Of a stretch of DNA of 64,000 nt, positions 32,885 through 50,150 are shown piece after piece. Each line of letters begins with the position of its first letter. Position 1 is the stretch's first letter. A program made the position numbers and the translations under genes. Under the pieces are notes generated by a model that saw only the letters and a program-made list of their open reading frames with translations, was not told the DNA's origin and ran no database searches. Source of the DNA: Sinohyriopsis cumingii (lineage: Eukaryota > Mollusca > Bivalvia > Unionida > Unionidae); the NCBI GenBank assembly GCA_028554795.2, contig CM068831.1, positions 59,333,180-59,397,179 on the forward strand, in the 5' to 3' direction.

Positions 32885-33254
32885 AGTAGTTAAGTGGGGT
32901 ACATTAGCGACAATGGGAATTAGCATTACAGAGACCCCTGGGTCAGATTAGCGACAAGGGAAATTTAACATGGTGAAAAATCGTGGGTCAGATTAGCGAC
33001 AAGGGAAATTAACATGGAGAAAAATCGTGGGTCACTCTAGCGACAAAGGGAATTTAACATGGAACTATAGTGTGGGTCTGTCTAGCGACAAGGGGAAATT
33101 AACATGGGGAATAGAGTTTGGGCTTTTGGGATTTTTTAAAAAAATTTTTAAATTTAAATTTAAATTTAAATTTAAATTTTAAAAAAGGGTAGGCAATGGA
33201 AAGGCTATCTCTTTTCGAGAAATATGGCTGGCCCTGAAAAGGGCCTTTGGGTTT
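32885..33254. repeat. Left terminal inverted repeat of the Polinton
   Basis: Inverse of 49787-50150 with only small differences in an A/T run. From the tip inward it holds five 44-46-bp subrepeats each with a (T)AGCGACAA-GG-AA-TTAACAT core (32907-33115), an AT-only TTTAAA tract (33133-33187), and then the histone-type 3' signal of the gene at 33271. The subrepeats may be terminal recognition or replication sites. That role is inferred. Confidence 0.9.
33208..33245 (-). terminator. Histone-type 3' stem-loop and downstream element, gene 33271
   Basis: The minus strand reads GGCCCT-TTTC-AGGGCC at 33245-33230, a 6-bp stem with a TTTC loop identical to the histone mRNA consensus. It starts 25 nt after the stop codon and is preceded by CCAAA as in histone genes. 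A GAAAAGAGA purine element follows (33216-33208), about 13 nt beyond the stem, where U7 snRNP binds histone pre-mRNA. Confidence 0.85.
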
Positions 33255-33270
33255 TCTTCTTCTTCTGCTT

Positions 33271-33657
33271 CTAATTTCTTCTTTTTCTCCACCAAGTTCT
33301 TATTTTATCTCCAACACTCTTTCTCTTCTTCTCTTTCTTTTTCTCCTGCTCTTCTTTCTTCTTCTTCTCTTCCTCCTCTTCTTTCTTCCTCTTCTCATTT
33401 TCTTCTTTTTCAATCTTTTCGTTCCATTTGCTTATTCTTATTCTTTCCTCTTCATCCTCCTTCTCCTCCTTTATCTCTTTCATGACACCACTAATCTTGT
33501 CCTTTACCTTTTTTAAGTTAATAATTTCCATCTTTACACGATGGAGACTATAGGAATAATGGTCTTCAACCAGTCTTATTAACATCTGCTCCATCATTCC
33601 TAAGTTGTCTAAAACGTCTTGTAATGTTTGTATTTTCTCCATTTGGTTAGAAGCCAT
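33271..33657 (-). CDS. Small coiled-coil protein (terminal gene 1)
   Basis: 128 residues, ATG at 33657. The N-terminal 50 residues are an amphipathic helix (IQTLQDVLDNLGMMEQMLIR). The rest is a very charged Lys/Glu coiled coil (residues ~65-120), ending basic (TWWRKRRN). No known domain. Its arrangement (upstream GCGCGTACGTGAAGG promoter motif, helical N-terminus, Glu/Lys-rich tail, histone-type 3' hairpin) is shared with 34537-34917 and 35411-35770, so the three look like diverged paralogues. Function unknown; an early regulatory or host-interaction role is only a guess from the terminal location. Confidence 0.7.
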   Translation of the reverse strand: MASNQMEKIQTLQDVLDNLGMMEQMLIRLVEDHYSYSLHRVKMEIINLKKVKDKISGVMKEIKEEKEDEEERIRISKWNEKIEKEENEKRKKEEEEEKKKKEEQEKKKEKKRKSVGDKIRTWWRKRRN

Positions 33658-33710
33658 CTTCTTTTTTTATTCTTTGCAGAATGGTTTGAACGACGAATAC
33701 TGTGGGTTCT

Positions 33711-33820
33711 TATACTTAAAGCGCGTACGTGAAGGAAAACATCCCCCTAAAACGTAAAATTGATCTTACCTAGATCATGACCAGACAACGCGCGAACGTG
33801 AAGGAAAACATCCCCCTACT
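33711..33820 (-). promoter_or_regulatory. Promoter module of gene 33271
   Basis: On the minus strand a GTATAAG TATA-like box (33717-33710) lies about 55 bp upstream of the ATG. Beyond it is a GGGGGATGTTTTCCTTCACGT motif continuing into ACGCGC. A second copy of the CGCG-ACGTGAAGG motif lies at 33790-33820, and a 15-bp inverted repeat GATCTTACCTAGATC at 33762-33776 sits between the two. The same layout recurs upstream of gene 34537. Confidence 0.6.
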
Positions 33821-33893
33821 TTTTCATTTCATATAATAAAACCCAAACTATACTTTCTCATTTCATATAATAAAAACCCAAACTATACTCTCC

Positions 33894-34400
33894 ACATACG
33901 CTAAGAAACAATAAACAAAATCCATAATCTACTATCCACACAATCTTACGTGAGCGCTTACAAAACCCAAACTATACTCTTCACATACGCTAAGAACAAT
34001 AAACAAATCCATAATCTACTATTCACACAATCGTACGTGAGCGGGTACAAACACAAACACACAAACACAAACACACAAACACAAACACACAAACACATAC
34101 GCTAAGAAACAATAAACAAATCCATAATCTACTATTCACACAATCGTACGTGAGCGGGTACAAACACAAACACACAAACACAAACACACAAACACAAACA
34201 CACAAACACATACGCTAAGAAACAATAAACAAATCCATAATCTACTATCCACACAATCGTACGTGAGCGGGTACAAACACAAACACACAAACACAAACAC
34301 ATACGCTAAGAAACAATAAACAAATCCATAATCTACTATTCACACAATCGTACGTGAGCGGGTACAAACACAAACACACAAACACAAACACATACCCTCA
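33894..34400. repeat. Minisatellite with CACAAA microsatellite core
   Basis: Five copies of a ~90-113-bp unit starting TACGCTAAGAAACAATAAAC (at 33897, 33986, 34098, 34211, 34302), each with AATCGTACGTGAGCGGGTAC (variant in the first copy) and a variable (AAACACAC)n run. The ACGTGAGCG part resembles the promoter motif's ACGTGAAGG. Non-coding. Confidence 0.8.
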
Positions 34401-34515
34401 CACTATCTTAAAAAAGAGTTAGTGTTTATATTCACACTACTCTACCTACACATTGGCAAATTGATGGTTATTTCTTTTCTAGAGTATTGGGTAGCCCTGA
34501 AAAGGGCTGTTTTTT
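34391..34515 (-). terminator. Histone-type 3' signal, gene 34537
   Basis: The minus strand reads AGCCCTTTTCAGGGCT at 34508-34493, 28 nt after the stop, then ACCCA and a GAAAAGAAA element at 34481-34473. The A-U closing pair replaces G-C while the stem remains perfect. The whole 125-bp block is repeated at 35265-35393. Confidence 0.85.
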
Positions 34516-34536
34516 TGGAACTTCATGGACACCTGG

Positions 34537-34917
34537 TTAATGGTGGCACCTTCCAGGCCTGGCGCCACATACACATCTTATCCCCCAGTTACTTTTTACT
34601 TTTTGGGGGGAGAGAGCAGAGGCAGGATATGTCGCTTCAGAATCCCAATTTTCGCTCTCTGGGATTCTGAAATTTATTCTTCTTCTCTTCTTTTCCTTCT
34701 CCTCCTCCTCTTCTTTGTTTCTTCTCTCCTCCTCTTTGTATCTTCTTTCCTCTTCTTCTTTATATCTTCTCTCCTCCTCTTCTTTTTTTCTTCTTTCCTC
34801 CTCCTCTCTTATCCTTCCCTCCTCCACAATGGCTTCCGCGGCCAGTTCATTCAACTGGCGCCTGGCATATTCCAGATGCACATGAAGTTCCAACAGTTTA
34901 GACAGTCTCGTGTTCAT
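34537..34917 (-). CDS. Small coiled-coil protein (terminal gene 2)
   Basis: 126 residues, ATG at 34917. The N-terminus (RLSKLLELHVHLEYARRQLN) is helical and similar in pattern to the gene at 35411. Residues ~35-78 are an arginine/glutamate coiled coil with repeats of EERRYKEEE type. The last ~45 residues are not low-complexity (FRIPESENWDSEATYP). No known domain. A TATAAATT box lies about 55 bp upstream (34975-34968), with the shared CACGTCCGCGC motif beyond it. Confidence 0.7.
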   Translation of the reverse strand: MNTRLSKLLELHVHLEYARRQLNELAAEAIVEEGRIREEEERRKKEEEERRYKEEEERRYKEEERRNKEEEEEKEKKRRRINFRIPESENWDSEATYPASALSPQKVKSNWGIRCVCGARPGRCHH

Positions 34918-34967
34918 TTTTGGTGTTGATCAATCAACAAGGGTAGCTAGACTGCCCAGCGAGTTTC

Positions 34968-35075
34968 AATTTATAGTGAAAGCGCGGACGTGAAGTAAAA
35001 CATCCCCCTAAAAAAACATAAAATTGATGTTACCTACATCATGACCAAAAACAACAACGCGCGGACCTAAAAGAA
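34968..35075 (-). promoter_or_regulatory. Promoter module of gene 34537
   Basis: Reading minus: GGGGGATGTTTTACTTCACG, then TCCGCGCTTTCAC and TATAAATT. A 15-bp inverted repeat GATGTTACCTACATC (35026-35040) and a second CGCGCGGACC motif (35058-35067) lie further upstream, in the same order as in the gene 33271 module. Confidence 0.6.
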
Positions 35076-35264
35076 ACACTCACTCACTTTTTTATGCTAC
35101 CCATCACTATTTTAAAATTTTTTATAAATCACTTCATTAGACTATCCACATACGCAAAGCAATCCAATCTAACTCCAAATATACACCTCAAACACCAAAA
35201 AAACATGATTTTAATCTACTATTCATACCAACTTACTTAAGCACTTACTAACACACAAACACAT

Positions 35265-35393
35265 ACCCTCACATTTTTTAAAAAAGAGTTAGTGTTTATT
35301 TTCACACTACTCTACCTACACACATTGGCAAATCGATCGTTATTTCTTTTCTAGAGTATTGGGGTAGCCCTGAAAAGGGCTGTTTTTTTGTTT
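35265..35393 (-). terminator. Histone-type 3' signal, gene 35411
   Basis: The minus strand reads AGCCCTTTTCAGGGCT at 35381-35366, 29 nt after the stop, followed by ACCCC and GAAAAGAAA about 13 nt later. Nearly identical to the 34391-34515 block. Confidence 0.85.
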
Positions 35394-35410
35394 GCTATGG
35401 CATTCTTTTT

Positions 35411-35770
35411 TTAGTTTCTAAGAATGCGATGTCCTCTGAGGATAGACTTTCTGGCGATAGGTCTGCTTCTTCGGAAAGAAAAGAAGAACTCTTTGGTGTC
35501 GATACGGCAATCGACAAAGCCTCTGTCAGGTTCAGGTTGCTGCTGCTGCTGCTCTTGTTGTTGTTGTTGCTGCTGTCTCTGAAGTCTGTAATTCTCTGTC
35601 CATTCTTCTTTTTCCCTGTTCATTTCTTCTCTGAAGAGCTCTTCTATCAGGTCTTCAGTGATTTTTAACATTCTCACATTCTCTATTTCTTCTGGCTTCG
35701 GTATCAGACTGTGTCTGACCCTATGCAAATTCACGTAGGCTTCGTTGAGTTTAGCTAGTTTGGAGCACAT
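35411..35770 (-). CDS. Small helical protein with poly-Gln tract (terminal gene 3)
   Basis: 119 residues from the first ATG at 35770. The N-terminus (KLAKLNEAYVNLHRVRHSLI) parallels that of gene 34537. An acidic helix follows (EELFREEMNREKEEWTENY), then a glutamine run (residues ~67-80) and a basic C-terminus (FRRSRPIARKSILRGHRILR). No known domain. Upstream at 35821-35871 is a third copy of the GCGCGGACGTGAAGG / CATCCCCC promoter motif. Confidence 0.7.
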   Translation of the reverse strand: MCSKLAKLNEAYVNLHRVRHSLIPKPEEIENVRMLKITEDLIEELFREEMNREKEEWTENYRLQRQQQQQQQEQQQQQPEPDRGFVDCRIDTKEFFFSFRRSRPIARKSILRGHRILRN

Positions 35771-35820
35771 CTTCTTAGGAGGATGAGTCGACAATGGATG
35801 GTTAGACTGGAAACAACCCG

Positions 35821-36200
35821 GTTCTTAAAGTTAAAGCGCGGACGTGAAGGAAAACATCCCCCACACGGTTTTTGAGTCGCAACGTTTAGTGAGTGTCATG
35901 AGAGGGATAGTAAGAAATGAAAGAGCATCAATCCAACATTCTTATAGCTAACAAAAGACAAAGGCATTTTTTTCAAAACACAACATTTTTTATTCAAAAA
36001 TCACTTAACACTAAACAACAACTCTAACATTTTTAACAATAATCCAACAATATAACATCAAACAATTTTTTTCAAAACACAACATTTTTTAATTCAAAAA
36101 TCACTTAACACTAAACAACAAGAACTCTAACATTTTTTAACAATAATCCAACACTAAAAGTTTCTCCACTAGGTAAAGAGGGATAACAGTCTTCCATGGT
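35821..36200 (-). promoter_or_regulatory. Promoter motif of gene 35411 and 3' region of the capsid gene
   Basis: 35821-35871 carries the shared GGACGTGAAGGAAAACATCC motif. 35967-36060 and 36066-36155 are a direct repeat of about 95 bp (TCAAAAATCACTTAACACTA in both). A minus-strand AATAAA at 35994-35989 could serve the capsid transcript. No histone-type hairpin follows the capsid gene. Confidence 0.5.
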
Positions 36201-36202
36201 TT

Positions 36203-37516
36203 CTAGTAATCTAGGATGACTTCTCTCAAACTGTTGATTTCTATGGTATTATCGAATTCTGCATACAGGATGACGTTCACCGTTTCATCAGGGTCTCGGT
36301 CTTTAAACTGAATTTCCACACGAATCTGGCCGGATTTTATAGGTTGGAAATGTCCCTCGTCGCTGCCTTGGTCTGGAGTGAAATCGAAAGCCCACAAAGC
36401 GTAGCCTCCTGCATAATCCTCGTACGTAATACCGTGACTGGTATTGGTTCCTAACTGTCCGGTGGCTTCGTACAGGGACAAGTACGATCTCAAGTAATTC
36501 TTCTTGGTAAAGTCAGGTTCGAAAGGTCGGGTACACAAGGTCTTGCCATCGCGACTGACTTCGATTTTGGACACGCCAAAGTGTTGAAAGTAGAAAGGAT
36601 TTTTTTCGGCAGCTCCGTTGAAGGCTGTATTCTCGACGATACCAACGATCAAACGTTTGGGTAACTGTCCTTGGAACAGATGATCTTCGATCATGGATCG
36701 CTGTCCCTTGGGAATGGTGAAGGTTTTCACTTCCACGCGTCGTATAGGATACTTGGCGGTCGTTCTACTCAACGTCTGACTGATGTCGTTTCCCACTTTA
36801 GGTAACACTTCCACACGGCGTACGTAGAGTCTGGCTTCTAGGATTTTGGTTTTGTAACCGTCACTATCAGCCATCAAATGGAAAGCGGCACTGCTACGAT
36901 TCAGTCTCAGGCGGACATCCACCCCGTTCAGCAAATACTTTTCTTGCAACCACATGTCCAAATGCAAACGATCCATCAGTTCTAAACTTGTGTCGGCTCC
37001 CGTGATTCTCTTTCTTCGTTCTAGAAATCCATCATTGTTGTCTTTCTTTTCATCAGTTTCCAATATTTCAAACTTGGTAGGTTCGTTAGCTTCCCATACC
37101 ACACAGGCATTGAGATGAGTGTTCTTGGCATCTATTCCGTACGTCAAGAGATTTTCCAGGTAGGCACGATAAGGGTAAGTATCCATGCTGCTACTGACCA
37201 GTTTGTTATTCAAGTACAAGTCCACTCCACTGAACAAGGAATGCATGAAATTGTTGACGGGAGCTACTGCTTCATCGTCTATAGCACCTCCAGTCTTATC
37301 TAGAATTTTGACTTTCAGGTACAAGTAACTGCTATTCAGATCGATGTAATCTTCGGGCTGTCCTTTGATTTCAAACTCGATGGGAGCGGAATCGGTCAGT
37401 GAGGAGACGGGGTGAAATTCCACCCACTGGGATTCTTGCATGGTCATCATGGTAGGGGGCATGGCAAACAGATCCAGTTCCGTCTTGGAACAAGCGCAAG
37501 ATTCTCGGTGCATCAT
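36203..37516 (-). CDS. Double-jelly-roll major capsid protein (hexon)
   Basis: 437 residues. The first ATG is at 37516 (ATG ATG); an upstream in-frame TTG is not used. Length and pattern match Polinton/adintovirus major capsid proteins: MQESQWVEFHPVSSLTDSAP at the start, then the strongly conserved VNNFMHSLFSGVDLYLNNKL and TYPYRAYLENLLTYG segments (residues ~80-125), and later FDFTPDQGSDEGHF and IQFKDRDPDETVNVILYAEF at the C-terminus. Two stacked jelly rolls would form pseudo-hexameric capsomers. The frame is intact. It sits next to the core-like protein and penton as in other Polintons. A decayed homologue is at 23990-25150. Confidence 0.92.
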   Translation of the reverse strand: MMHRESCACSKTELDLFAMPPTMMTMQESQWVEFHPVSSLTDSAPIEFEIKGQPEDYIDLNSSYLYLKVKILDKTGGAIDDEAVAPVNNFMHSLFSGVDLYLNNKLVSSSMDTYPYRAYLENLLTYGIDAKNTHLNACVVWEANEPTKFEILETDEKKDNNDGFLERRKRITGADTSLELMDRLHLDMWLQEKYLLNGVDVRLRLNRSSAAFHLMADSDGYKTKILEARLYVRRVEVLPKVGNDISQTLSRTTAKYPIRRVEVKTFTIPKGQRSMIEDHLFQGQLPKRLIVGIVENTAFNGAAEKNPFYFQHFGVSKIEVSRDGKTLCTRPFEPDFTKKNYLRSYLSLYEATGQLGTNTSHGITYEDYAGGYALWAFDFTPDQGSDEGHFQPIKSGQIRVEIQFKDRDPDETVNVILYAEFDNTIEINSLREVILDY

Positions 37517-37533
37517 TTTTTTTGTCTCTTTTC

Positions 37534-37950
37534 TCAATAATCGAAAACGTCTAAGTCTCGAACGGTTCTTCTTTTCTTGGCCTTTCTCGCTTGAAGTCTG
37601 GTGAAAGGGTGTTTTCTTCGTCGTCTCTTTCTGCCTTGTCCTTGCTGAATGCCTGACTCGTTAGCATGCAGGGCATTTATAGGTGTTTCTCGTTGGCCTA
37701 AAATGTCTTTGCCCGTTTGCAGCAAGACATTTTTGCCTGCCCTCATGAAGGCTTCTTTAGGGTTTTGTTTGTCGATGATGACATTTTGGAGAAATTCTTT
37801 GCCTTGCGTCAGTGCCGCATCTTTCAAGGCGTGCAATCCGCGTGTCACCATCGGTTTCAACACCGGGGCCATCGAACGAAAGGCCGATTTTAACATGTCT
37901 CCTAAACCGTGTCCTCGCTGTCGAGCAACCCCTCGGTACACTGGATACAT
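37534..37950 (-). CDS. Basic core-like / membrane-active minor virion protein
   Basis: 138 residues, ATG at 37950. The N-terminal half has an amphipathic region (GHGLGDMLKSAFRSMAPVLK, then TRGLHALKDAALTQGKEFLQ). The C-terminal half is arginine/lysine rich (GRKRRRRKHPF, RLQARKAKKRRTVRDLD). Position between MCP and penton and this composition resemble the small core (pX-like) proteins described for adintoviruses. DNA condensation or membrane disruption during entry is inferred, not shown. It ends 18 bp before the MCP ATG. Confidence 0.65.
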   Translation of the reverse strand: MYPVYRGVARQRGHGLGDMLKSAFRSMAPVLKPMVTRGLHALKDAALTQGKEFLQNVIIDKQNPKEAFMRAGKNVLLQTGKDILGQRETPINALHANESGIQQGQGRKRRRRKHPFTRLQARKAKKRRTVRDLDVFDY

Positions 37951-37957
37951 GACTTAC

Positions 37958-38881
37958 TTACGAGTCGTGAGAGAACCGTTTTCGAAAATGGAGTTTCACC
38001 GTGACTTTTCCTTTGGTGAATGTAATATTTTGTCCCAGATCTCCTTTTATAGCAATGTTGACCGTGTCCAAATACGACTTACTGACAGGCAAATAGTGAG
38101 GATGGACAAATTCGCGGTGGACGTGGTAAGTGTTTCCACCTTCCTCGTCAGCGTTCGTGGCAGAATCCACTTTGAAAGGAATGACACGCAGTAACGGTAC
38201 GGAGGTGTGTCCCACCACGTTGTACTCCACCACATCGGAATACACGAACATCAAATTCAGTCCTTGGTTCAGTTCTACCGGGGCACGAAATAACTTGCTA
38301 AAAGACTCGTTGTCGTAAACGATGGGTAATTCGTTTTTCTTGAGCATGGCCTTTCTCATGTCCATGTCTCCGCCCAACATGTCAAACAATTCAGGACAAA
38401 ATAAAATGGACACGATTTTACTTCGTTCAAATTTCATCAAGAAGCGACGAGCTGCTTTGTGGTACTCCATGGTGACATTTTTGTTGACATGCTCCAAAGC
38501 TTTCAGAAACACGACATTAAACCTGGAGGTTATGGTGCTGTCCAAATGTTGACCACTAAAATAATAGCCTGGGGGAATGAACAAGTGATAGGTGGTGTAC
38601 TTTTGTGTACGGGTTTTCTTGTCATATTTGACATTGCTATCCATCCACTGTTGCATTTGCTCGTCATGAACTTCCACATCAAAAAAATTTTGATTGGGAA
38701 GGACATTGAGGACTTGGGTCGGGTGAATCATTTCTACTAAAGCCACTTCCCAATGGGCTTCGTGATCTAACTGGATGGCCTGAGGTAATTTGGCCGTGTA
38801 ACAGCACAACGTGTTCTTGGGAAACACCTCCATGGAACTGTCACTGGGTAAAGTTAAGTAAAATTGGTTTTGGTGACTCAT
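37958..38881 (-). CDS. Penton (minor capsid, single jelly-roll) protein
   Basis: 307 residues, ATG at 38881; the ATG overlaps the stop of the upstream membrane protein (ATGA). It begins FYLTLPSDSSMEVFPKNTLC with TAKLPQAIQLDHEAHWEVAL, the signature N-terminus of Polinton pentons. IPPGYYFSG and FERSKIVSILFCPELFDMLG follow mid-protein, then NLMFVYSDVVEYNVVGHTSV. It should form the pentameric vertices. The frame is intact. Confidence 0.9.
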   Translation of the reverse strand: MSHQNQFYLTLPSDSSMEVFPKNTLCCYTAKLPQAIQLDHEAHWEVALVEMIHPTQVLNVLPNQNFFDVEVHDEQMQQWMDSNVKYDKKTRTQKYTTYHLFIPPGYYFSGQHLDSTITSRFNVVFLKALEHVNKNVTMEYHKAARRFLMKFERSKIVSILFCPELFDMLGGDMDMRKAMLKKNELPIVYDNESFSKLFRAPVELNQGLNLMFVYSDVVEYNVVGHTSVPLLRVIPFKVDSATNADEEGGNTYHVHREFVHPHYLPVSKSYLDTVNIAIKGDLGQNITFTKGKVTVKLHFRKRFSHDS

Positions 38882-39297
38882 AATTCCAGAGTTCTGTGGC
38901 TGTCCGAGGGGATATTACTGGACGTCAGAGGCGTGTCTCCGTCTAAAATGGGGTTCTGGTTGTGATTGAAGTGGTGACTGGCACTGGCACTGGACACAAG
39001 GTTCCCGGGGTTCCCGTTCGAGGTGAATTTCAGGGAGGGATTAGGAAGCAGGTAACCGATGCAACTGCTCAATAAAATGGTCCACAATTGTTTGTCTCCT
39101 TGTTGCAAACTCAAATTGGCGATGGCTGCCCCGATGACACAATACACCACGAAGATTTGGCAGAAAAAGACGATTTGCGTTTTAGGCACACGTTCTCCAC
39201 ACCACACCCACAACGGTTGTTTTTGTAAATCTTGCACAGAAGAACTAGGGGAAGGAGGAGTGGTCGACGTAGCTGCGTCTGCTGTGTGAAAAGGCAT
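38878..39297 (-). CDS. Two-pass membrane protein of the Polinton
   Basis: 139 residues from the ATG at 39297 (an upstream in-frame GTG at 39306 is unlikely). A Pro/Ser-rich N-terminus precedes two hydrophobic segments, IVFFCQIFVVYCVIGAAIAN and LWTILLSSCIGYLL (residues ~43-90). A polar Ser/Asn-rich tail follows. No known family. The same segment (CVIG-AI-NLS-QQG-QLWTILL) is kept in the decayed Polinton at 26445-26740, so it is a conserved viral gene. It starts where the integrase gene ends. Confidence 0.7.
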   Translation of the reverse strand: MPFHTADAATSTTPPSPSSSVQDLQKQPLWVWCGERVPKTQIVFFCQIFVVYCVIGAAIANLSLQQGDKQLWTILLSSCIGYLLPNPSLKFTSNGNPGNLVSSASASHHFNHNQNPILDGDTPLTSSNIPSDSHRTLEL

Positions 39298-39302
39298 GAT
39301 GG

Positions 39303-40412
39303 TCACTTCTTTTTATAGTCGATGACTTGCGAAGCGTCGATCCAAGAATGAAAACTGGGTGGATATCCTTTCCAACGTACTTTGACTTCTTTTGACACGT
39401 CGTTTGCCCACTTTACGGGTTCTGCGTTCGAGAATGCTTTCGATGTCGTACACGTCGTCTTCTTTTTTGGTGACACGTTGTAACTCGGGCAAATAAAACG
39501 TTCCTTTGAGCACTTCTCCGTTCATGTCTTCCAATTTATAGACGGCAGGATGACGGCCATGCACTCGTCCAGTGACGCGAAACAATTCGGTCGTCCAGTT
39601 AGGTAAGTAACCTTTGTCGAAAGTGCGTTTGGTTTTGCCAATGCGCACCCAATCTCCTACGGCCAACTCTCCACTTTTCTTGGGGACAGCCCTCGTCGGG
39701 GACGTACCAAACAGGCGCTCAAACACCAACACTTCATTCTCGGGAGTCACGTCTTGCGGGGCACGTCCGATGCTTCGATGGTAAGATTGGTTGTACGCTT
39801 GCACCAGGTGCGGTAAGATGTCGATGTACTTCAGAGTGTGGTGATGCGTAAAATATTTCCACATGCGTTCTTTCAAAGTGCGTTGAAAACGTTCCACGAT
39901 GCTGGCCTTGGTTTCGGGATTCTCGGTGGTAAAAAAATGAATGTCACGTTTCTTTAATTCTTTTTGGAAAGCTTGGTTCAGAAATTCGGTGCCTTTGTCC
40001 GTTTGCCATCGAAGAGGGTGACGACCGCTTTGTTTCAACAGTCGTTGCAGGGCTCGCACTAACTCGCTGCTCGATTTGGAAGTCAAGGCACGACCCAGGC
40101 AAATTTGGAAAAGACGTCGATGACACAAAACAAATATTTGTAGCCACGATTGTAGCTGGCCAAATGAGAGACATCGGCTAAATCGGCTTGCCATTGATGA
40201 TCGATGCCTTCCACTCGGGTGCGACTTCTGGCAAACTTGCGTCGAATGGGTTTGTGTAAAGTGTAGGTAGCTTGTTCTTGTAACCATCGTTGCACTTGAG
40301 GTAAACGGAGACTTTTCAGTCGAGTTTTGGCAGCACGATACAATTTTTGAACTCCTGCGTAACCTGCAGGATGCGAGGCATCGTAGTAAATGCTGGCTAA
40401 GACTTTTTCCAT
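39303..40412 (-). pseudogene. Polinton integrase with chromodomain, two frameshifts
   Basis: ATG at 40412. The first frame runs to a TGA at 40085-40083 and holds the N-terminal domain (KVLASIYYDASHPAGYAGVQ) and the first catalytic Asp (HQWQADLADVSHL). The core continues in another frame from about 40100: second Asp in WQTDKGTEFLNQAF, Glu in ETKASIVERFQRTLKERMW, then the C-terminal domain (AVGDWVRIGKTKRTF). At about 39395 the frame shifts again, at an A4 run on the minus strand. The end of a chromodomain (VRWKGYPPSFHSWIDASQVI) lies in the shifted frame and stops at 39303, next to the membrane-protein gene. It would catalyse integration with 6-bp duplications. As read, it is broken at two places. 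Confidence 0.85.
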
Positions 40413-40436
40413 TTTTTTTTTGTGTTGGTTGGTGTG

Positions 40437-41075
40437 TTAATAAGACACCCACTCTTGGAGGATGCTACTCTTTTTCTCTTGGGGTATTTTCTTGGATTGC
40501 AATGCTTTGCGTGTGCGGCCAGCAATAGGCGTCGAAGAGGAGAAGGATGTCTGAGCGGGGGATATCGGTTCTTGTTTCACTTCTGTCTTCACTTCTGTCT
40601 TCACTTTCTTTTTCTCTTGTGAGGAAGAAGGGGTGGCCATCATCTTTTTAATCCATCCAATTCTGGAGGTAGGTGGTGTTGTTAACTTGCATACTTTTTC
40701 TGGTGGAGTTTGAAACCCTTCCTCTTCTTTTCCTTTTTCTGTCTTGGTCACGGGTACTGGTGGTACTGGTACTGGTACTGGTGATGGTGCTGGACTTTTC
40801 ATCAAGGTCTTAAAATCTTTCAGAGTGGGTAGAGCTGTTTCGTCTAAAGCTTTCTGGTGAAAGAGTTACAGTCGTTGCAAGAGTTGACCGTACTTTTGCG
40901 ATTTTTCTGTTTCGGACAAATCTTGGCGATCCATCAAGGACTGCAATTCGTGTTGTAACTGGGACATCTCGCTCAAATGGGGATTGGGAGGTAAATGCGG
41001 GGTGCGTTGTTCTTGCCACCGATGGTATTCCATCCATCGTTTGTAAGGCACTAAAGCTAGTTTTCGTCCTTCCAT
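40437..41075 (-). pseudogene. Conserved Polinton minor protein interrupted by one stop codon
   Basis: ATG at 41075. Residues 1-69 (EGRKLALVPYKRWMEYHRWQ, LQHELQSLMDRQDLSETEKS, QKYGQLLQRL) match a recurrent small Polinton protein with an LVP-x3-Y/W start and a helical repeat. A single in-frame TAA lies at 40868-40866. The same frame then stays open through LFHQKALDETALPTLKDFKT and a Pro/Val repeat (PVPVPVPPVPV) to 40437, ending SSILQEWVSY. The tail has KTEVKTEVKQEP, which resembles SUMO-site-like motifs. Function unknown; probably a minor virion or assembly protein. Confidence 0.65.
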
Positions 41076-42478: not shown

Positions 42479-42532
42479 GTTCGCACTGAGAGTGAGACAG
42501 ACGAAAAAGGGTCTGAGGTTTTTATAGATTTT

Positions 42533-43276
42533 TTATGGGGAGTGAAATGAAGTCGAGGACGGAGACGTGTACAGGACAGGTCCTCCGTCTTGGCACCAGT
42601 GGTGAAACAAGTGGGTACGAAATCGCAAATCCTCGGGATTCGTAGGTTTCAAATCGACGAGTAAATAGGCGTGTGGAGTTTGAGTGGCATCGTCGTACGC
42701 CTGAGTCAGCCAAGGCGTTCCTAACTGTTTGGCTAAGACTTGCACTTGCGATTTATCTCGAGGGCTTTTAAACAAGACCACGTAATGCGCATTGAGACTG
42801 ATGGTGCGATGGGCTTTACTTTGTTGAAACAAATTTTGGGTGATGTAAACGACACTGGCATTACGGTGATGCCCTTTGCGCGTGAACCACAGTTTAATTT
42901 CTTCTTCGTCTTCTCCTAACATGTCGTCGAAAATGACCAAATGGGTTAGACGGGAGTCAGAGACGATGCCGTCGTCTTCTTTAGGAATGCCTTCCACAAA
43001 CACGATGGAATCGCCTTGACTTTCTCGCAAGAGGCTGTACGCCGATTGCCACTCTTTGTAACACCACACGATTTGTTGAGGGGGTCGATCGATCAAATGA
43101 TGTTTATGTTCGATCAAACGTTTGACGAATTCGGTTTTGCCCGAACCGCTAGGTCCAGCAATGAGCATGTTAAAGGGATGGCGAAGATACAAAGCCTCCC
43201 AACTGGCACGATCTAAGTGTTCGTCGATGACTTTGACAGTAGAGGAAGAGGGAGCAGAGACAGCAGAGGTAGCCAT
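42533..43276 (-). CDS. Genome-packaging ATPase (FtsK/HerA-like, A32 type)
   Basis: 247 residues from the ATG at 43276. An upstream TTG start is rejected. Walker A is GPSGSGKT at residues 41-48, Walker B HLVIFDDM at ~112-119, and a YITQN sensor-type motif at ~145-149. Size and motif spacing match the packaging ATPases of Polintons and other DJR viruses, which drive DNA into the capsid. Frame intact. Confidence 0.92.
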   Translation of the reverse strand: MATSAVSAPSSSTVKVIDEHLDRASWEALYLRHPFNMLIAGPSGSGKTEFVKRLIEHKHHLIDRPPQQIVWCYKEWQSAYSLLRESQGDSIVFVEGIPKEDDGIVSDSRLTHLVIFDDMLGEDEEEIKLWFTRKGHHRNASVVYITQNLFQQSKAHRTISLNAHYVVLFKSPRDKSQVQVLAKQLGTPWLTQAYDDATQTPHAYLLVDLKPTNPEDLRFRTHLFHHWCQDGGPVLYTSPSSTSFHSP

Positions 43277-43359
43277 GGTGTGAGAAATGTCACTTGTGAC
43301 ACGAAAAACAAACAAGACAAGAGTTTATATACTTTTTCAGAACACGTTTATTGAATGTT

Positions 43360-43704
43360 TCAAACATGAACACGAAAGACAAAAATACATAAAAGCCAAA
43401 GGCTTAAGTACAAGAATAAAAGGCACATGATAACCATGAACGTGGAATAAACACAAGTGTCTGTACAACATGTTTTGGGTAAAGTTCTGACCAGTTCTAT
43501 AGTAGGGGGTAAGGTGACACAAGTGTCCTCCCGAAAGGGTCTTTCAGGCCTGTCCACGACAGTCCTGTCCTGGGTGACGGGTTCTTCTGGCACCGTCACT
43601 AACACAGGTTGAAAAGTAACTTTTTTCCTTGAATAACTCTCGTGCATACTGGGCCACCTCTTGTGTCCAAGCCTCAAAACCCTGGTCTCGGTGATGTCCA
43701 ACAT
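43360..43704 (-). CDS. Single-pass membrane protein, C-terminal anchor
   Basis: 114 residues from the first ATG at 43704; the frame is open a further 21 codons upstream without an ATG. The hydrophilic N-terminal part includes RPERPFREDTCVTLPPTIEL. One transmembrane helix, FMVIMCLLFLYLSLWLLCIF, lies close to the C-terminus, preceded by a small Cys cluster (CCTDTC). No known family. It lies between the ATPase and the polymerase stop. A minor envelope or internal-membrane role is possible but unsupported. Confidence 0.5.
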   Translation of the reverse strand: MLDITETRVLRLGHKRWPSMHESYSRKKVTFQPVLVTVPEEPVTQDRTVVDRPERPFREDTCVTLPPTIELVRTLPKTCCTDTCVYSTFMVIMCLLFLYLSLWLLCIFVFRVHV

Positions 43705-43771
43705 TTGACTCCTAACCAATCTGGTTTCTTTTTCGTCAACGACATGGTAAGTTACTTCAATGAACAATGAA

Positions 43772-46700
43772 CTATCGATCTTGCATAGGGTTCCTTTTCA
43801 TATACAGACCAATACCGACGTGACCGTACTTTAAGGTGAAGTGATTGGGAATTCGCACTCGCTTCTGGTATACAATTTGATAGACTTTTTCCAAGGGTCG
43901 ACTGACGATGTGGTGAGTGGGTAAACGTACAATCTTGTTCGGTTGATAGGTGGTCACTTTAAAGTTTCCATCCTCTCCCGATTGCAAGGCTTCTTTCAAT
44001 ACCCCAAAGTTGACCACTCGACTGGTACGATGATTCAGAGTCAGTCCTTTCACTTTGCACGTCGTGTGCACTTCTCCTTGTTTGTTCCGGTATTCGTAGC
44101 CGTAATTTTTGGGACCACCACTGACGAAACTTAGAATCTTGTCGTCGGGATGCTCGTCTGTCCAGGCTCCTAAACGGTCTCCTTCGATGTCAGGGTGCTG
44201 TTGAATCGGGTGATGGATGTAAATGCAACTGTCCGTGTCAAAGTACAGGACGCGTTCTTCTAACAGTTCTAAAGCTTCGTACAATTTTAAGCGAGCATGA
44301 GCTGTCACGTAAGCCGCAATGATGACATTTCCAAAAGGGTCGTCTTGTACAAAGTCCAGATCTTCTTCGTAATTGACCAAGATCAAATCCTCTCGAACGA
44401 CGTCCACGTGTTTCATGTATTTGGTTTTGTCGTGAATCATCTGGAAGTAGCGGGAAGGTTCTGTCAAATATTCCGTCTTGGGTAAACACGGTCGTTGTGC
44501 CATTTTACCCCACAAGCAATTTAACATCACTTTGGCAAACGATCGCCTGCCTTCGTTTTTTTTCGATGTGGTCTAAAGAGATGCCTTCTTGTGCATAGTA
44601 TTTCTCTTTGAATTGTATTTGGTCTTCGGGAGTGTGACACCAGGAAGGATAGCCGCTGGCTTCTTGTTTCAGTTTCAAAAAGGCATCCACGTAGTCGGCG
44701 AAAATGCCTTTCTGAGTAGGGTCACCCTTGTGGTACTGTTGTGTCTTGGGAAAGTGGCAAATTTCGTACACTTCTAACAGTTGGTATCCCATGTCCAGAG
44801 CTTTGAACAATTCTACGCTGACCCAGGTTCCCGTCAAGGCACGTTCTTCCTGGCTGTGATGGCAAGGTTGGTCCTGGTTGCACGTTTCGGCACAAGTACG
44901 GCACAAAGGAAACATCAGTTTGCCTTGACAATGGTGAGGTAAGACGGGATGGTATAGGTTCGTGGGAGGCAAAACTTTACACTTGATCAAGCCTTCGTAT
45001 TGTCGAATGTTTTTCAGGTCGATGTGTTCCGTCAACAATTGCGGGTGCCCTACAGGAAAGCGACAATATTTGCACACGTAGGGATACAGCGAACACACGT
45101 CCAAGTATTTGATTTCTTCTCCTTTCTCTTCGTCGGCTTGGTACAGCAAACAGGTGGCATTGGTCCTTCCTCCGTACAAACTATCCCTCGGGTTCAGCGG
45201 GTCCATGAACTGGTAACTTTCCACGAGGCGTTTAAACTCGGGATCGGTTTTCAAACGGTGATCGTACTCGTGTTCCCACATTTCCACCACTTGGTATCCT
45301 TGCTGTTCTAACTTTAGGCGTCGCTGACAAGTGTCCTGGTACAAGTCTTCCATGGTTCGTTGCAAAAACTGATTTTTAGTGTCACGGTCAGGGTAGCAGA
45401 CGGGACATCCGTGAAATAAGCAACCGTTAAACTCGTACACGATCTTGGGGTTTTCTAAGTCCCAGCCATCGACCGAATACGTTCCGATGGTCTTTTCGCC
45501 TCCTCCGTTGCGGGCATGCTGAATCCATTTGTCTTCCTTGTCACACAAGTAATGTAACCAACGTAGGGCTTTGACCGAGTATTGACGCTTGACATAGTGG
45601 GTCGTTTGAGGACTGATGACAGCCACGGTGTTTTCAGGCATGAATCGTTGGCGGTACACTAAGGAACACGCTTTGGCAATGGTGCAAGATTCTTTCAAAG
45701 GATCGACCCCTCCGTGTTCCATGAACAGTTCTCGAAATTTTCCACAGCAACGTCGTAAAATGTCCACGTCGGAACGACAATACTTTAACATTTCTTCCTG
45801 AAAGTCGAAGGGGTCAGAGGCATGAGCCTGGTACCAAGCGTAGAAATCTTCTCGTTGTTCGGTACGCATGTTGTCGGGGTCGTAATAGTGAGCCTCAGGC
45901 AAATGGGGTAGAACGGCATGTTGATTGGCTTCCGTATTGAAAAAGTGTGGAAAGTACCCTTTAGCCATTTCTGTCATTCCAAACGTTTTAGGCATTCGAC
46001 TCAAAGGCATGGCTAAGTAACTCATCGAATCTTTAAACTGTACTTGTCCCACTTGCATGAAAATGATTTTGGCTCCGTTCAAAATCACTTTAGGACGTTC
46101 GGTGCCATGTTCCGTATAGTACCTCAAAAGAAACTGTCCATCGTATCCGGAGAAATTGTGAGCCATCACCGTGGCATGACGATGACAATCTCCGTAACGT
46201 TCGATGTCCTCTTGGCTCCACGTCTTGTCGATGGGGTTTAAGACCCATCGGGCAAAATCGGCTAACGTGTTTGGTCCTCGAAAGATTTTTTCACGTCCTC
46301 CAGGAATCTTGCTGCAGTGAGGGCAATGACTGAAGATAGGTTCTTGAATGCACTTCTCGCACGCTCGATGAGCCACGCAGAAATTAGGAATGTGAATGCC
46401 GGTCTCTTGCATGCATTCGAAATCGAAAAAGATGAAATTGCCTTTCTTCTTGTGACCGTCCTCTTCCTCTGGTGGGGGTTGGTATTTTTGCACGTAGCAT
46501 TGGTGTTCCAAGTCCACGATGTGGTGACAAATGTGACATTTTTTCTTTCCTCGACATACGTGTGCCTTGGCATTATTGGTAAGTATGCCTTGTCCACAGG
46601 TAGGGCACAATCTCAGGAGTTGACAAGCACATTTCTTCTGTGAACCTTGTGTTTTCAAATGTTGTTGGTAACAGGTAGGACTGACAAACGTGCGCAAACA

Positions 46701-47837
46701 AGTCGAACAAGGCACTGGTCCTTCGCTCAGACAGGGTGGAGAGGCCAAACATCCTGGGCATTTCATTCCACAATGCTTGTGTTGCTCTCGATTGTTATAA
46801 CCATAGTCACATTTCTCACAATAATAACTGTATCCCAGGAATCCAGTGATACTGGTAATGGTATCGAAATGTTCATCGTGATGATAGACATGAATGTATT
46901 TTCCGTCCTTAAAATCTTGGCCTCGAAACAACAGAGTTCCACGCATTTCTTGAGGGTGCACTTTCAAGGTGTAGCGTGGAGCTAGGGCATCTTGCAATTT
47001 TTGCATCTCAGGAATGCCACAGGGTGTGTCTTTGGACAGTCCGGCTTGTTGCAACAGGAGTTCTGCTTCATTTCGTTGTTTGGCTCGATCGCATCGTTGA
47101 ATAGTTTTCCAGGTTCTTTTCCATTCTACCGTGTCGTTCTTGTTGGCATAGGTTCGTCCCACCACGATGGCACGGGCTAAACACATCTGGTCTTGAGGGT
47201 TGTTAATTCGGACGAGACTCTTTTTGGTGTTGCGAAGGTCGTCCACCAATAACATCTTTTTGCATCCAGTTCCTTGAGGAGGAGAGACGTGAGCCATTTT
47301 CAGTGTGGCTTTACCATTGGTGATGTCAAACTGGTCATTAGATTGTTGCACCTGTTGTATCTTGTCCATGACTTTGGAAGGGGTCAGTTCTGCGGGTTTG
47401 CTAAACTCGATCCAAACAGGGGATTTCAAACCGTCGTGATCTATGGATAGTGTCAAGCGATCGTCTTCTTTGGCTTGACATTGTCGCTTGAGTGCGGTGA
47501 GCAAAGAATCCCACATCTCGGTGATAAACCCTTCTGCTTTCTCCAAGGGTACGTCGGCCTTGAAATCTTTAAACTTCACCGTGTAGGTGTAAGCCGTGGT
47601 TCTAAATTTTCTAGAGGAGCGCTTTTCCGTCTCTCGAATGGAATAGTACTTTTCAGGGTTGACTAAGGGTGGTGAACTTGGTTTAGAGGGTTCGGAATCT
47701 GGTTCACTCATGTCCTCTTCAAAATCACTGGCATGAATTTGTGCCAAGATTTCAGCCCTGGTACGAGGCGATAGATCACGTTTCTGCCTCTTACTTTCTT
47801 CTTCTTCTTTCTTCTCGAATGAATGGGATCGTTTCAT
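43772..47837 (-). pseudogene. Protein-primed DNA polymerase B, broken by one frameshift
   Basis: ATG at 47837; the first frame is 1110 residues. After a charged N-terminus (~1-90) there is a long N-terminal region with Cys/His clusters (~340-450). Exonuclease motifs: FFDFE (~471-474), NFSGYD (~561-566), YCRSDVD (~686-692). Residues ~780-860 (YSVDGW, VYEFNGCLFHGCPVCY, VEMWEHEYD) look like the PDDEXK/Vsr-like insert common in these polymerases. Motif A is DVCSLYPY (~913-920). The frame changes at an A8 run (44563-44556 on minus). Motif B (KVMLNCLWG) and motif C (YFDTDSCIYI) are in the second frame, ending 43772. As read, the protein would lose its polymerase active site. Confidence 0.9.
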
Positions 47838-47972
47838 CTTGAGTGCAAAACGTCAAATGACTCAAGTTTAAACACCATAGACTAATTTATAGTCTGGGCA
47901 AACCAGCGTATATAAAAAGGGTGTGTGTCTTGTCCTTTCACTATTCATTTCACTCTCAAGCTGAGCACAACA
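47838..47972. promoter_or_regulatory. Bidirectional promoter between PolB and the zinc-knuckle gene
   Basis: 135 bp between divergent start codons. Plus strand: TATATAAAAAGG at 47909-47920, 53 bp before the ATG at 47973. Minus strand: TATAAATT at about 47892-47885, ~50 bp before the ATG at 47837, inside an inverted repeat AGACTA...TAGTCT. Confidence 0.65.
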
Positions 47973-48465
47973 ATGGAAGAGACTACCCAGATGGAACGTT
48001 TCGTCAGAGCTTTGCGAGGGGTCATTAGAAAATTCTCTTCAGACCAGCCGACGGACTACTCTCCTTCCTTTCGAGATAAAAGTCAAGATACTTGCTATAT
48101 CTGTCAGAAGAAAGGGCATTGGTCTTCAGAGTGTCCAGACCGTCAAAAAAAGAAAAAAAACAGGGGCTAAAAAAGACAAAAGTCAAGATACCTGTTATTA
48201 TTGTCAAGAAAAAGGACATTGGTCTCCAGATTGCCCAAAAATGAAACAAGAGGAGTCAGAAGAAAAGAAGGATTCTTCAGAAGAAGAGAGGGATTCTTCG
48301 GAAGAAGAGAGGGATTCTTCGAAAGAAGAGAGGGATTCTTCAGAGGAAGAAGAGGAAGAAAGAAGACAATTCTATTTACAAGAAGCAAAGAAACAGGAGA
48401 AGAAAAGAAGAAGGGAAGAAAATGAGGAAAAAACGGTGAAGAAATTAAAAAAACAGAGAGACTAA
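47973..48465 (+). pseudogene. Double zinc-knuckle (CCHC) protein, frame changes at an A8 run
   Basis: ATG at 47973. The first frame carries one CCHC knuckle, CYICQKKGHWSSEC, and stops at 48168-48170. A second, very similar knuckle, CYYCQEKGHWSPDC, lies in another frame just beyond, which stays open to 48465 through an acidic repeat (RDSSEEE/DSSKEE units) and a Lys/Arg/Glu-rich tail. The frames meet at G-A8-C (48152-48161). CCHC knuckles bind single-stranded nucleic acid and are usual in retroviral Gag; the divergent position next to PolB suggests an early or replication role, which is inference. No histone-type hairpin follows. Confidence 0.65.
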
Positions 48466-48690
48466 ACAAGGAGAAAGAAGAAGTCAATGAACTTTTAATT
48501 AAAGTGTTCTGTGGTGAATTGTGAATTGGATTGTAAAAAAATGGATAAAAGAATACATGAATGATATAAGGTAAGTGTCTTTGAGTTCTGATTTTAAAAT
48601 AAGAAGCTACACTCACGCACTCATACACAGACACGTACTATAAGGTAAAATGGGTGGGGTTTATTCTTGAGTTATTGGCAAATTGAAATT
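48466..48690. other. Intergenic region
   Basis: No gene seen. It separates the plus-strand zinc-knuckle gene from the 3' end of the minus-strand gene 48757-49318. Confidence 0.5.
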
Positions 48691-48731
48691 GTATTTCTTT
48701 TCGAGAAATGTGGGTGGCCCTGAAAAGGGCC
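48691..48731 (-). terminator. Histone-type 3' signal, gene 48757
   Basis: The minus strand reads GGCCCTTTTCAGGGCC at 48731-48716, 25 nt after the stop, then ACCCACA exactly as in many histone genes, and a GAAAAGAAA element about 13 nt further on. A TTGGCAAATTG segment next to it is shared with the blocks at 34451 and 35326. Confidence 0.88.
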
Positions 48732-48756
48732 TTTTTATTTTGGTGTAGGGGTGAGA

Positions 48757-49318
48757 TTAACCAATCAACTTTAACTGCCTTAAGCCTTTGCCACGGCCAA
48801 GGCCTACTTCTGATGATTGGGTTGAAATCACTAAGGGTGGTACGACAGGCTTAGTCACAGGGTTGGCGTGTTTAGCTCGGGAAGGTCGTATTCTCTTCGG
48901 TCGTGATAAAGAAGTCTGATACATTTGTTTCAGACTTCTTAACTCCGCTAAAATGTCCAACAGTACCGTAGCCGTTTGATTTTCACCCTCTTGTTTCTTT
49001 GCTGCTACTTCTTCTTGCTGTTGTTGCTGTTGTTTTTTTTCTTACCTCTTCTTGTTGCTGTTGCTGTTGCTGTAGGAGAAAAGCTTGTTCCGCTTCCTTT
49101 TGTCGTTGCATAAATTTCTCCAATTCTTCTTTCTGTCTCTGTCTAAAATTCTCCACTTGCGGTAATGAAGAAGGTAACGAAGGTTCCGGAACAAATTCTT
49201 GCGAGGTAAGAAAATCCACAAAATCCCAATGTACCTCTTCTGAAAGTAAGTCCGGGTTCCCTTGGGCAGTCTCCCCTGCTGGTGCACCCCAATGGATCGT
49301 TTTCTGAGTTTCCGTCAT
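48757..49318 (-). pseudogene. Gln-rich terminal-region protein, frame changes at an A8 run
   Basis: ATG at 49318. The first frame has an acidic/hydrophobic N-terminus (EEVHWDFVDFLTSQEFVPEP) and a coiled coil (FRQRQKEELEKFMQRQKEAE) leading into poly-Gln, and would end at 48983. From G-A8-C (49041-49032) another frame continues the glutamine run and then a non-repetitive end (LLDILAELRSLKQMYQ, RPKRIRPSRAKHANPVTKP) to 48757. The continuation of poly-Gln and the hairpin placed 25 nt after the second frame's stop indicate that the second frame is the natural end. A GAG|GTAAGA splice-donor match lies just before the run, which leaves splicing as an alternative. Confidence 0.6.
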
Positions 49319-49537
49319 GTTGAATCACTGTCGCATAGATTGACTGCACACAAGCGCTAACGAATCTATATAGACCACGTGACGTCACAGACTGCTCTCT
49401 TCGGATTGGATGCGAGCTGACTGAATTTTGTAACGCGTGTTCGGATTGGTAAATGAATTCAATCCGTTTCAATCCTTCCTGTACCTATAAATAAGCATAG
49501 TTCACTGCATTGATTCACTTGTTCTCGTCGCTTCAAG
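49319..49537. promoter_or_regulatory. Bidirectional promoter with CRE, E-box and CCAAT-type sites
   Basis: 219 bp between divergent ATGs. Minus side: CTATATAG (49366-49373) with an overlapping CACGTG (49376-49381) and TGACGTCA (49380-49387). Plus side: TATAAATAAG (49487-49496). Between them TCGGATTGG occurs twice (49401, 49442) and its inverse CAATCCG/CAATCC twice (49461, 49471). These match CREB/ATF, bHLH and CCAAT-factor sites by sequence only. Confidence 0.65.
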
Positions 49538-49771
49538 ATGTGGACCGATGTGCAATCTTCTACGCTTGTGTCTTCCATGATGTTCCGGACGGACATGCTC
49601 ATGTATGTCCAAGCCAAGTGGACCGTTGTCCACAGGACAAACACCAGCCTGTGGATACGTAGGATCTACGTTGAAAGACAAGGATGCCTGAAAAGAGTGC
49701 TGATTTACGGACCAACAGTGAGACGTAGCCTAAGGACAAGAAGAAGACCAATGCGGTACCATTTATGTTAA
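49538..49771 (+). CDS. Small basic protein at the right terminus
   Basis: 77 residues, ATG at 49538. No known domain. It has a mixed N-terminal half (DVQSSTLVSSMMFRTDMLMY) and a basic C-terminus (VRRSLRTRRRPMRYHLC). Coding status rests on context: a TATA box 44 bp upstream, and a stop codon 24 nt before a histone-type hairpin, the same spacing as for the four other small genes. Confidence 0.6.
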   Translation: MWTDVQSSTLVSSMMFRTDMLMYVQAKWTVVHRTNTSLWIRRIYVERQGCLKRVLIYGPTVRRSLRTRRRPMRYHLC

Positions 49772-49786
49772 TGAATACATTAACAT

Positions 49787-50150
49787 AAACCCAAAGGCCC
49801 TTTTCAGGGCCAGCCATATTTCTCGAAAAGAGATAGCCTTTCCATTGCCTACCCTTTTTTAAAATTTAAATTTAAATTTAAATTTAAAAAATTTTTTAAA
49901 AAATCCCAAAAGCCCAAACTCTATTCCCCATGTTAATTTCCCCTTGTCGCTAGACAGACCCACACTATAGTTCCATGTTAAATTCCCTTTGTCGCTAGAG
50001 TGACCCACGATTTTTCTCCATGTTAATTTCCCTTGTCGCTAATCTGACCCACGATTTTTCACCATGTTAAATTTCCCTTGTCGCTAATCTGACCCAGGGG
50101 TCTCTGTAATGCTAATTCCCATTGTCGCTAATGTACCCCACTTAACTACT
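49787..50150. repeat. Right terminal inverted repeat of the Polinton
   Basis: Reverse complement of 32885-33254, including the AT tract (49860-49905), the five GTCGCTA-containing subrepeats and the tip CTTAACTACT. Confidence 0.9.
49796..49833 (+). terminator. Histone-type 3' signal, gene 49538
   Basis: GGCCCTTTTCAGGGCC at 49796-49811, preceded by CCCAAA and followed by AGCCA. GAAAAGAGA lies at 49825-49833. It lies in the right inverted repeat and is the mirror copy of the left-end signal. Confidence 0.88.

Follow-up and report, generated by a model that had tools for sequence, protein, structure and literature searches.

The five outer genes of a Polinton in the bivalve Sinohyriopsis cumingii are, judging from their sequence, built as replication-dependent histone-type genes and are most likely expressed like them; we put the probability of this reading at about 0.87. 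The element lies in a 64-kb window (C8:59,333,180-59,397,179 of the 2.9-Gb host genome), which is the whole stretch of DNA that was analyzed and whose positions serve as coordinates for all features below. The five genes, here called edge genes A to E, end in histone-type stem-loops followed by a histone downstream element, and three of them also carry a histone-like promoter module. These cis elements match those of the host's own histone genes and are conserved among copies of the element, and all five stem-loops stand in the sense orientation of the gene that they follow. From the known histone pathway, we infer that the mRNAs would be processed at the stem-loop, would lack a poly(A) tail, and would be timed to S phase. 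Pfam scans found no histone families in the proteins of genes A to C, D, and E; the edge genes may work like replication-dependent histone genes yet encode no histone. The genes, their stem-loops (with matches to the Rfam Histone3 model, RF00032), their downstream elements, and the two terminal inverted repeats are as follows.

33271..33657, minus strand: edge gene A, 128 aa, charged, no Pfam family above the cut-off
34537..34917, minus strand: edge gene B, 126 aa, charged, no Pfam family above the cut-off
35411..35770, minus strand: edge gene C, 119 aa, no Pfam family
48757..49318, minus strand: edge gene D, split in the present copy by a frame change (open reading frame [ORF] with ATG at 48983-49318; second open frame ending at 48757)
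49538..49771, plus strand: edge gene E, 77 aa, basic, under purifying selection across copies
33230..33245, minus strand: histone-type stem-loop A (RF00032 match 33205-33250, 35.6 bits)
34493..34508, minus strand: histone-type stem-loop B, A-U outer pair (RF00032 match 34468-34513, 31.0 bits, E 1.8e-5)
35366..35381, minus strand: histone-type stem-loop C, A-U outer pair (RF00032 match 35342-35386, 29.3 bits, E 7.6e-5)
48716..48731, minus strand: histone-type stem-loop D (RF00032 match 48692-48736, 41.2 bits)
49796..49811, plus strand: histone-type stem-loop E (RF00032 match 49791-49836, 35.6 bits)
33208..33216, minus strand: histone downstream element A, GAAAAGAGA
34471..34479, minus strand: histone downstream element B, GAAAAGAAA
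35343..35351, minus strand: histone downstream element C, GAAAAGAAA
48694..48702, minus strand: histone downstream element D, GAAAAGAAA
49825..49833, plus strand: histone downstream element E, GAAAAGAGA
32885..33254: left terminal inverted repeat, with hairpin A at its inner end
49787..50150: right terminal inverted repeat, with hairpin E at its inner end

We scanned the whole 64 kb with RF00032 at the gathering threshold (curated cut-off, 34 bits) and obtained exactly three matches, namely hairpins A, D, and E. A relaxed scan limited to 32500-50500 added hairpins B and C, which fall just below the cut-off (E < 1e-4). The first-pass annotation, made from the letters alone, had described five hairpins of this kind, located 24 to 29 nt past a stop codon in the sense of a gene, each followed by a purine element and with the stem kept by compensating changes. 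All of these descriptions held up. The distance from stop codon to hairpin is 25, 28, 29, 25, and 24 nt for A to E, respectively, and all five hairpins are in sense; the motif AAAAGA starts 14 nt after the hairpin in A, B, D, and E and 15 nt after it in C; and the outer stem pair is G-C in A, D, and E and A-U in B and C. The strands had been given correctly for D (minus) and E (plus), while A, B, and C, for which none had been stated, are on the minus strand. Two descriptions stood only in part. Each of the five hairpins does end a different gene, but A and E are one sequence present in the two inverted repeats, where it ends two different outward-reading genes, and the two are therefore not independent (the 102-nt arms that contain them are 100% complementary, and, aligned over 370 positions, the full arms show 1 mismatch and 6 gap columns). 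Similarly, an open frame does end 25 nt before hairpin D, but the ATG ORF of gene D stops at 48983, the frame being changed in this copy. In several other copies, gene D is a single frame of about 185 to 197 codons that ends about 25 nt before the hairpin.

We then compared these 3' ends with those of the host histone genes, which are arranged in tandem repeats of about 8.3 kb (at least 150 matches scored). In the one repeat that was read (L097, C14:13.1 Mb), all five genes (H3, H4, H2B, H2A, and H1) are followed by a hairpin, 27 to 38 nt past the stop codon. The H2B hairpin, GGCCCTTTTCAGGGCC, equals the Polinton hairpin at 16 of 16 positions; the H3, H4, and H2A hairpins are one loop base off, and the H1 hairpin is one stem pair off. 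The host downstream element is CTAGAAAAGA in all of these genes except H2A, which has CCCGAAAAGG; AAAAG begins at +14 or +15 from the hairpin (AAAAGA in four of the five genes, AAAAGG at +15 in H2A). The Polinton downstream elements read CTCGAAAAGAGA, CTCGAAAAGAAA, or CTAGAAAAGAAA at +14 or +15, with the same core and spacing as in the host histones. Because their core is that of the host CTAGAAAAGA, the host U7 that serves the histones should also fit the Polinton RNA. The histone-type 3' processing proposed in the first-pass annotation thus fits what the sequences suggest, as the host H2B hairpin is identical, the core and spacing of the downstream element are the same, and the hairpin has been kept in diverged copies (see below).

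The 5' sides of genes A, B, and C are histone-like as well, which had not been noticed in the first-pass annotation and is new here.

33721..33747, minus strand: promoter module of gene A, proximal copy, 90 nt before the ATG
33790..33816, minus strand: promoter module of gene A, distal copy
34982..35008, minus strand: promoter module of gene B, 91 nt before the ATG
35056..35076, minus strand: second module of gene B, 21/21 identical to the host H4 promoter
35836..35862, minus strand: promoter module of gene C, 92 nt before the ATG
49319..49537: shared divergent upstream region of genes D and E, without the module

The module was first seen through repeat finding, as a repeat family (D10) upstream of genes A, B, and C. 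It agrees with the host promoters of H2B and H1 at 23 of 27 positions in either case and with that of H2A, read on the reverse strand, at 19 of 27, and none of 100 shuffles reached the observed match for H4, H2B, H2A, or H1. In the host, the distance from module to ATG is 111 nt for H2B, 109 nt for H1, and 80 nt for H4. Upstream of five Polinton core genes, and in the D/E region, agreement reached 14 to 16 of 27, which is no better than shuffles (maxima, 16 to 18). The module may resemble the vertebrate H4 site II, to which HINFP binds (ACGTCCGC core).

Genome-wide, the 23-nt core of the module has 30,300 exact copies, and its reversed version has none. Among the first 50 copies listed, on C1, an exact hairpin with its downstream element lies within 1.5 kb downstream of the module in the sense orientation in 42 of 50 cases and in the antisense orientation in 0 of 50. 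Ten modules were fetched; the hairpin (with up to 3 substitutions) was present in all ten and the downstream element in nine. As for the divergent region between genes D and E (49319-49537), it holds a TATA box, a cyclic AMP response element-like TGACGTCA, CACGTG, and two inverted CCAAT boxes, and it is reminiscent of a divergent histone promoter. The interval from gene A to gene B contains, at 33960-34403, four copies of a 127-nt stretch, spaced by 91 to 113 nt and with TACGTGAGCG motifs, an array that is possibly enhancer-like.

The promoter module bears on the alternative that the histone-type 3' end is a compact terminator at the crowded edges of the element, with expression not tied to S phase. 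All five 3' ends do belong to small edge genes, and two of them lie inside the inverted repeats; with neither D nor E carrying the module, this account is possible above all for those two genes. However, genes A, B, and C do carry a histone-like promoter module, which would be superfluous for a mere terminator, and we consider the compact terminator an unlikely explanation.

The core genes of the same element served as a control. None of 12 core ORF ends has a histone hairpin within 400 nt, and none of five core gene upstream regions has the histone-like promoter module. The 3' side of the capsid gene, which likewise lacks a histone hairpin over that distance, has ATTAAA at +110 and AATAAA at +209, and core ORF 43360 has AATAAA at +8; the other ten core ORFs have no poly(A) signal within 400 nt. 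Among the edge genes, A, B, and E have neither AATAAA nor ATTAAA within 400 nt. No SLBP family was found among the Polinton ORFs scanned with Pfam.

Hairpins past stop codons are also known from the mimivirus and virophage hairpin rule, in which a hairpin after the stop marks the end of the transcript. A generic terminator of that type, with polyadenylation at the hairpin, would go well with a capsid fold that is common to virophages and with hairpins that follow stop codons, the feature shared with the edge genes. Under the mimivirus rule, however, the hairpins are not known to have a fixed sequence in common and the RNAs are polyadenylated, whereas the hairpin and downstream element of the Polinton are the sequences of host histone genes and not any palindrome. 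A generic terminator is for this reason quite improbable.

Next, we looked at copies across the host genome. The exact hairpin core followed after 15 to 16 nt by AAAAGA occurs at 52,341 sites, and the reversed pattern occurs at none, which excludes a chance origin of the combination. An uncounted share of these sites must be histone H2B genes. Together with the 30,300 module cores, the number of sites suggests that the Polinton expansion is extreme, with copies of the order of ten thousand when estimated at five sites per element. Among the first 100 places listed, all on C1, the order seen in the window often recurs (for example, 34139 minus, 35031 minus, 35846 minus, 52508 minus, and 53604 plus), and there are 18 divergent pairs spaced as genes D and E are. 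Places scored with RF00032 numbered 75 among 589,472 first-look genome candidates; all 75 loci were fetched with about 1.5 kb on either side, and all 75 carry Polinton sequence.

Loci were ascertained through neighboring gene ends and promoter modules, neither of which is fully independent of the hairpin or the promoter. At edge-gene ends that had not been used for ascertainment, the hairpin (with up to 2 substitutions) was present in 82 of 84 (A, 7/7; B, 20/20; D, 38/40; E, 17/17). Left out of this count were 27 ends that had served for ascertainment and another 24 that lay close to the border of a locus, and gene C gave no match strong enough to enter it. Furthermore, AAAAGA followed 142 of 149 hairpins, at +14 in 140 cases and at +15 in 2.

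We also evaluated selection on the hairpin using 37 intact gene-E ends (36 loci), none of which had been used for ascertainment. The mean pairwise difference was 0.013 in the hairpin, 0.127 in the stretch of the downstream element, and 0.165 in the spacer, compared with 0.303 downstream, 0.354 upstream, and 0.279 at fourfold codon sites. Over all 114 nonascertained ends, the corresponding values were 0.063 for the hairpin, with two stem types mixed, 0.128 for the element, and 0.635 for the flank, with different genes mixed. Hairpins were searched with up to 2 substitutions, which caps their divergence, and the 82/84 count indicates that few were lost in this way. The outer stem pair in the 114 ends was G-C in 87, A-T in 20, A-C in 4, G-T in 2, and C-C in 1; two-sided changes of the stem are thus common and broken pairs few. 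Gene E is itself constrained, with a summed nonsynonymous (dN) to summed synonymous (dS) divergence of 0.11 and a median ratio of 0.135 (196 pairs; of 41 intact sequences, the 21 that share the most frequent length were used). Within the host genome, the hairpins of related Polintons have therefore been kept; the drift that the first-pass annotation had named as refuting its reading was not seen there.

These values speak to the idea that the hairpin is a passenger, that is, a histone 3' end captured once and spread with the element while having no function. The copies are indeed related by descent, and the number of sites is very high. Nevertheless, a functionless passenger would be hard to square with a hairpin that differs by 0.013 against 0.279 at the fourfold sites of gene E and 0.354 upstream, with two stem types that leave only 7 of 114 ends with another outer pair, and with the finding that, across four genes, 82 of the 84 ends examined carry the hairpin, and we regard it as very improbable. 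The hairpins might instead act at the DNA level, such as when the element is replicated, packaged, or recombined at its inverted repeats. This idea draws on the two of five hairpins at the inner ends of these repeats and is hardly credible, given that three hairpins lie outside the repeats, that each of the five follows a stop codon in the sense orientation and has a purine element on one side only, at a constant distance, that none of the 50 sampled modules has an antisense hairpin and element downstream, and that the sequence equals that of a host histone gene hairpin.

Relatives of the element in other genomes were represented by seven contigs in bacterial metagenome-assembled genomes (MAGs), which are short or have broken genes. 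The GTDB MAGs with Polinton-type capsid contigs (L002 to L008) comprise Escarpia and Bathymodiolus symbionts, Breoghania, Bacteroidia, Rickettsiaceae, and cyanobacterial bins, and their capsid contigs are probably eukaryotic contamination. A covariance search over this and other Polintons, as proposed in the first-pass annotation, gave RF00032 matches in the present element and a hairpin in one of the seven partial loci from other genomes. That locus (L005) is a Polinton fragment in a Bacteroidia MAG (CALIZB010000033.1). It shares with our element a hairpin, GGCCCTTATCAGGGCC (RF00032, 35.8 bits), which lies 28 nt beyond the point where a small edge ORF stops and is followed by AAAAGA at +14; it differs in its capsid (33% identical), in having another edge gene (zinc-finger-like by eye) and another loop, and in giving no match to the module. 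A single positive locus is insufficient for dating the trait. Searches of IMG/VR by capsid or integrase yielded no relatives. The only match to a hairpin pattern in IMG/VR (L001) is not called by Rfam at the cut-off.

Several observations weigh against reading the edge genes as histone-type genes. Poly(A) signals occur at the 3' sides of two edge genes: AATAAA (+111) and ATTAAA (+196) in gene C and, in the present copy of gene D, AATAAA 2 nt before the hairpin and another about 50 nt after it; because of these signals near their hairpins, genes C and D may be polyadenylated. The downstream element is absent after 7 of 149 hairpins and in 1 of the 10 members of the module-ascertained set. At the 5' sides, genes D and E are without the promoter module, and the host H3 promoter is without it too, with 34 of 100 shuffles matching as well as the observed sequence. 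Beyond the host, the other six partial Polinton loci gave no RF00032 match up to E 1, an absence that says little because the contigs are short or the genes broken, and three patterns combining hairpin and element had no match in IMG/VR. Finally, a search for the host U7 small nuclear RNA with RF00066 gave three places, all sub-threshold (best, 29.3 bits), and a pattern search gave 199 matches versus 183 in the control. One U7 look-alike (L108, G000:C4:8413060-8413296) was found among three small stretches examined for U7. It has two TTCTTTTC stretches, AATTTGTCTA, and a hairpin, and Rfam does not call it; it pairs with the downstream element, but this is circular, as it was picked for that very sequence.

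If the edge genes are indeed of histone type, their pre-mRNAs would end at the hairpin bound by host SLBP. Cleavage would occur a few bases past the hairpin, aided by the U7 small nuclear ribonucleoprotein on the GAAAAGA element, and the cut mRNAs would have no poly(A) tail. Host histone transcription factors would switch on genes A, B, and C, whose module is like that of H1, H2B, H4, and (reversed) H2A, and these genes would probably be activated together with the histone genes at S phase. The block of capsid, polymerase, and integrase genes, being without both signals, would be expressed apart from them, with the capsid gene at the downstream end of the block presumably using its ordinary poly(A) signals. 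The element would then run two expression programs, one of accessory genes coupled to S phase and one of core genes with poly(A).

Moreover, we lean somewhat toward a broader proposal, in which the accessory genes of this Polinton lineage would be disguised as histone genes at both ends, such that their transcription, 3' processing, translation, and decay would follow the host S phase and their sites would load the histone supply. The 52,341 exact sites probably outnumber the host histone genes, whose number was not fully counted, and the Polinton sites may compete for SLBP and U7 and so place a standing load on histone supply. According to one article, replication-dependent core histone mRNAs are the only known animal protein-coding mRNAs in which a 3' stem-loop replaces poly(A) (PMC6303110). 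If our reading is true, a virus-like element would be a second client of the histone mRNA pathway, and a virus would have a direct means of coupling gene expression to host DNA replication. RNA data selected for poly(A) could have missed the edge-gene transcripts. In addition, the genome copies would offer a vast natural set of hairpin and downstream-element variants.

The boundaries and core genes of the element are as follows.

32885..50150: Polinton element, 17,266 bp, with inverted repeats, flanking CACAGG direct repeats, PolB, integrase, ATPase, and capsid fold
32879..32884: target-site duplication CACAGG, left, 6 bp
50151..50156: target-site duplication CACAGG, right, 6 bp
44505..47837, minus strand: DNA polymerase B, main ORF (PF03175, E 9.3e-38)
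36203..37516, minus strand: major capsid protein, double jelly roll by predicted fold

A Pfam scan of the ORFs found an A32-type packaging ATPase above the cut-off (PF04665) and a retroviral-type integrase that is spread over two ORFs (PF00665, E 4.2e-6 and 0.0058, both under the curated cut-off). The capsid model (mean predicted local distance difference test score, 71.6) matches in fold the capsid proteins of iridovirus, Sputnik, and mavirus (E 5e-15 to 1e-12), and it also matches adomavirus, MELD-virus, and adintovirus proteins when compared with predicted viral structures. In that comparison, an uncharacterized Cotesia sesamiae Mombasa bracovirus protein ranks first (37% sequence identity) and may be a fragment of a Polinton residing in a wasp virus. 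Of 1,022 capsid relatives, 120 were listed; those with a name come from bivalves or from the MAG of a bivalve symbiont, with about 52% identity in Mercenaria and about 46% in oysters, in line with a molluscan host. Gene E had two unnamed matches in the protein database. Convergent to gene D, at 47973-48480 on the plus strand, is a small gene with a zinc knuckle (PF00098), interrupted by a stop in the present copy; the relaxed RF00032 scan of 32500-50500 found no Histone3 match after it. Elsewhere in the window, ORF pieces judged by eye to be retrotransposon-like occur at 14072-14828, 15770-16081, 19191-19640, and 53080-53556.

The bare presence of histone hairpins in the polinton-like group is already in print as a count. 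An Rfam scan of 8,300 polinton-like and virophage genomes at the Rfam cut-offs reported six histone 3' untranslated region stem-loops, none of them in cryptophyte elements (PMC12220804), which qualifies the remark of the first-pass annotation that the property is undescribed. Those elements share with ours stem-loops detected by the same Rfam-type scan; in the excerpt of that article, the stem-loops are counted without discussion, and neither the elements and genes concerned nor a downstream element, a histone promoter, or a mechanism is stated. In the open-access literature searched, we found no paper that ties such hairpins to genes, a downstream element, histone-like promoters, or a mechanism. 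The same Rfam family has also been named in SARS-CoV-2, where a reported Histone3 match of 14.7 bits lies within coding sequence (PMC7786107); that score is far under the cut-off of 34, whereas the Polinton hairpins score 29 to 41 bits, stand after stop codons, and are accompanied by the downstream element.

Among known elements, the present one is closest in its makeup to Polintons/Mavericks and adintoviruses, with which it shares inverted repeats, a 6-bp duplication, PolB, a retroviral-type integrase, an A32-type ATPase, and a double-jelly-roll capsid; it seems to differ from them in the histone-type 3' ends and promoters of its edge genes. In these very features, the edge genes resemble the replication-dependent histone genes of metazoa. 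They share with them the hairpin, the purine element, the spacing between the two, and the distance to the stop codon, and genes A, B, and C additionally share a promoter module that closely matches those of host histone genes. What sets them apart from metazoan histone genes is that the Polinton edge proteins are not histones and come from a mobile, virus-like element.

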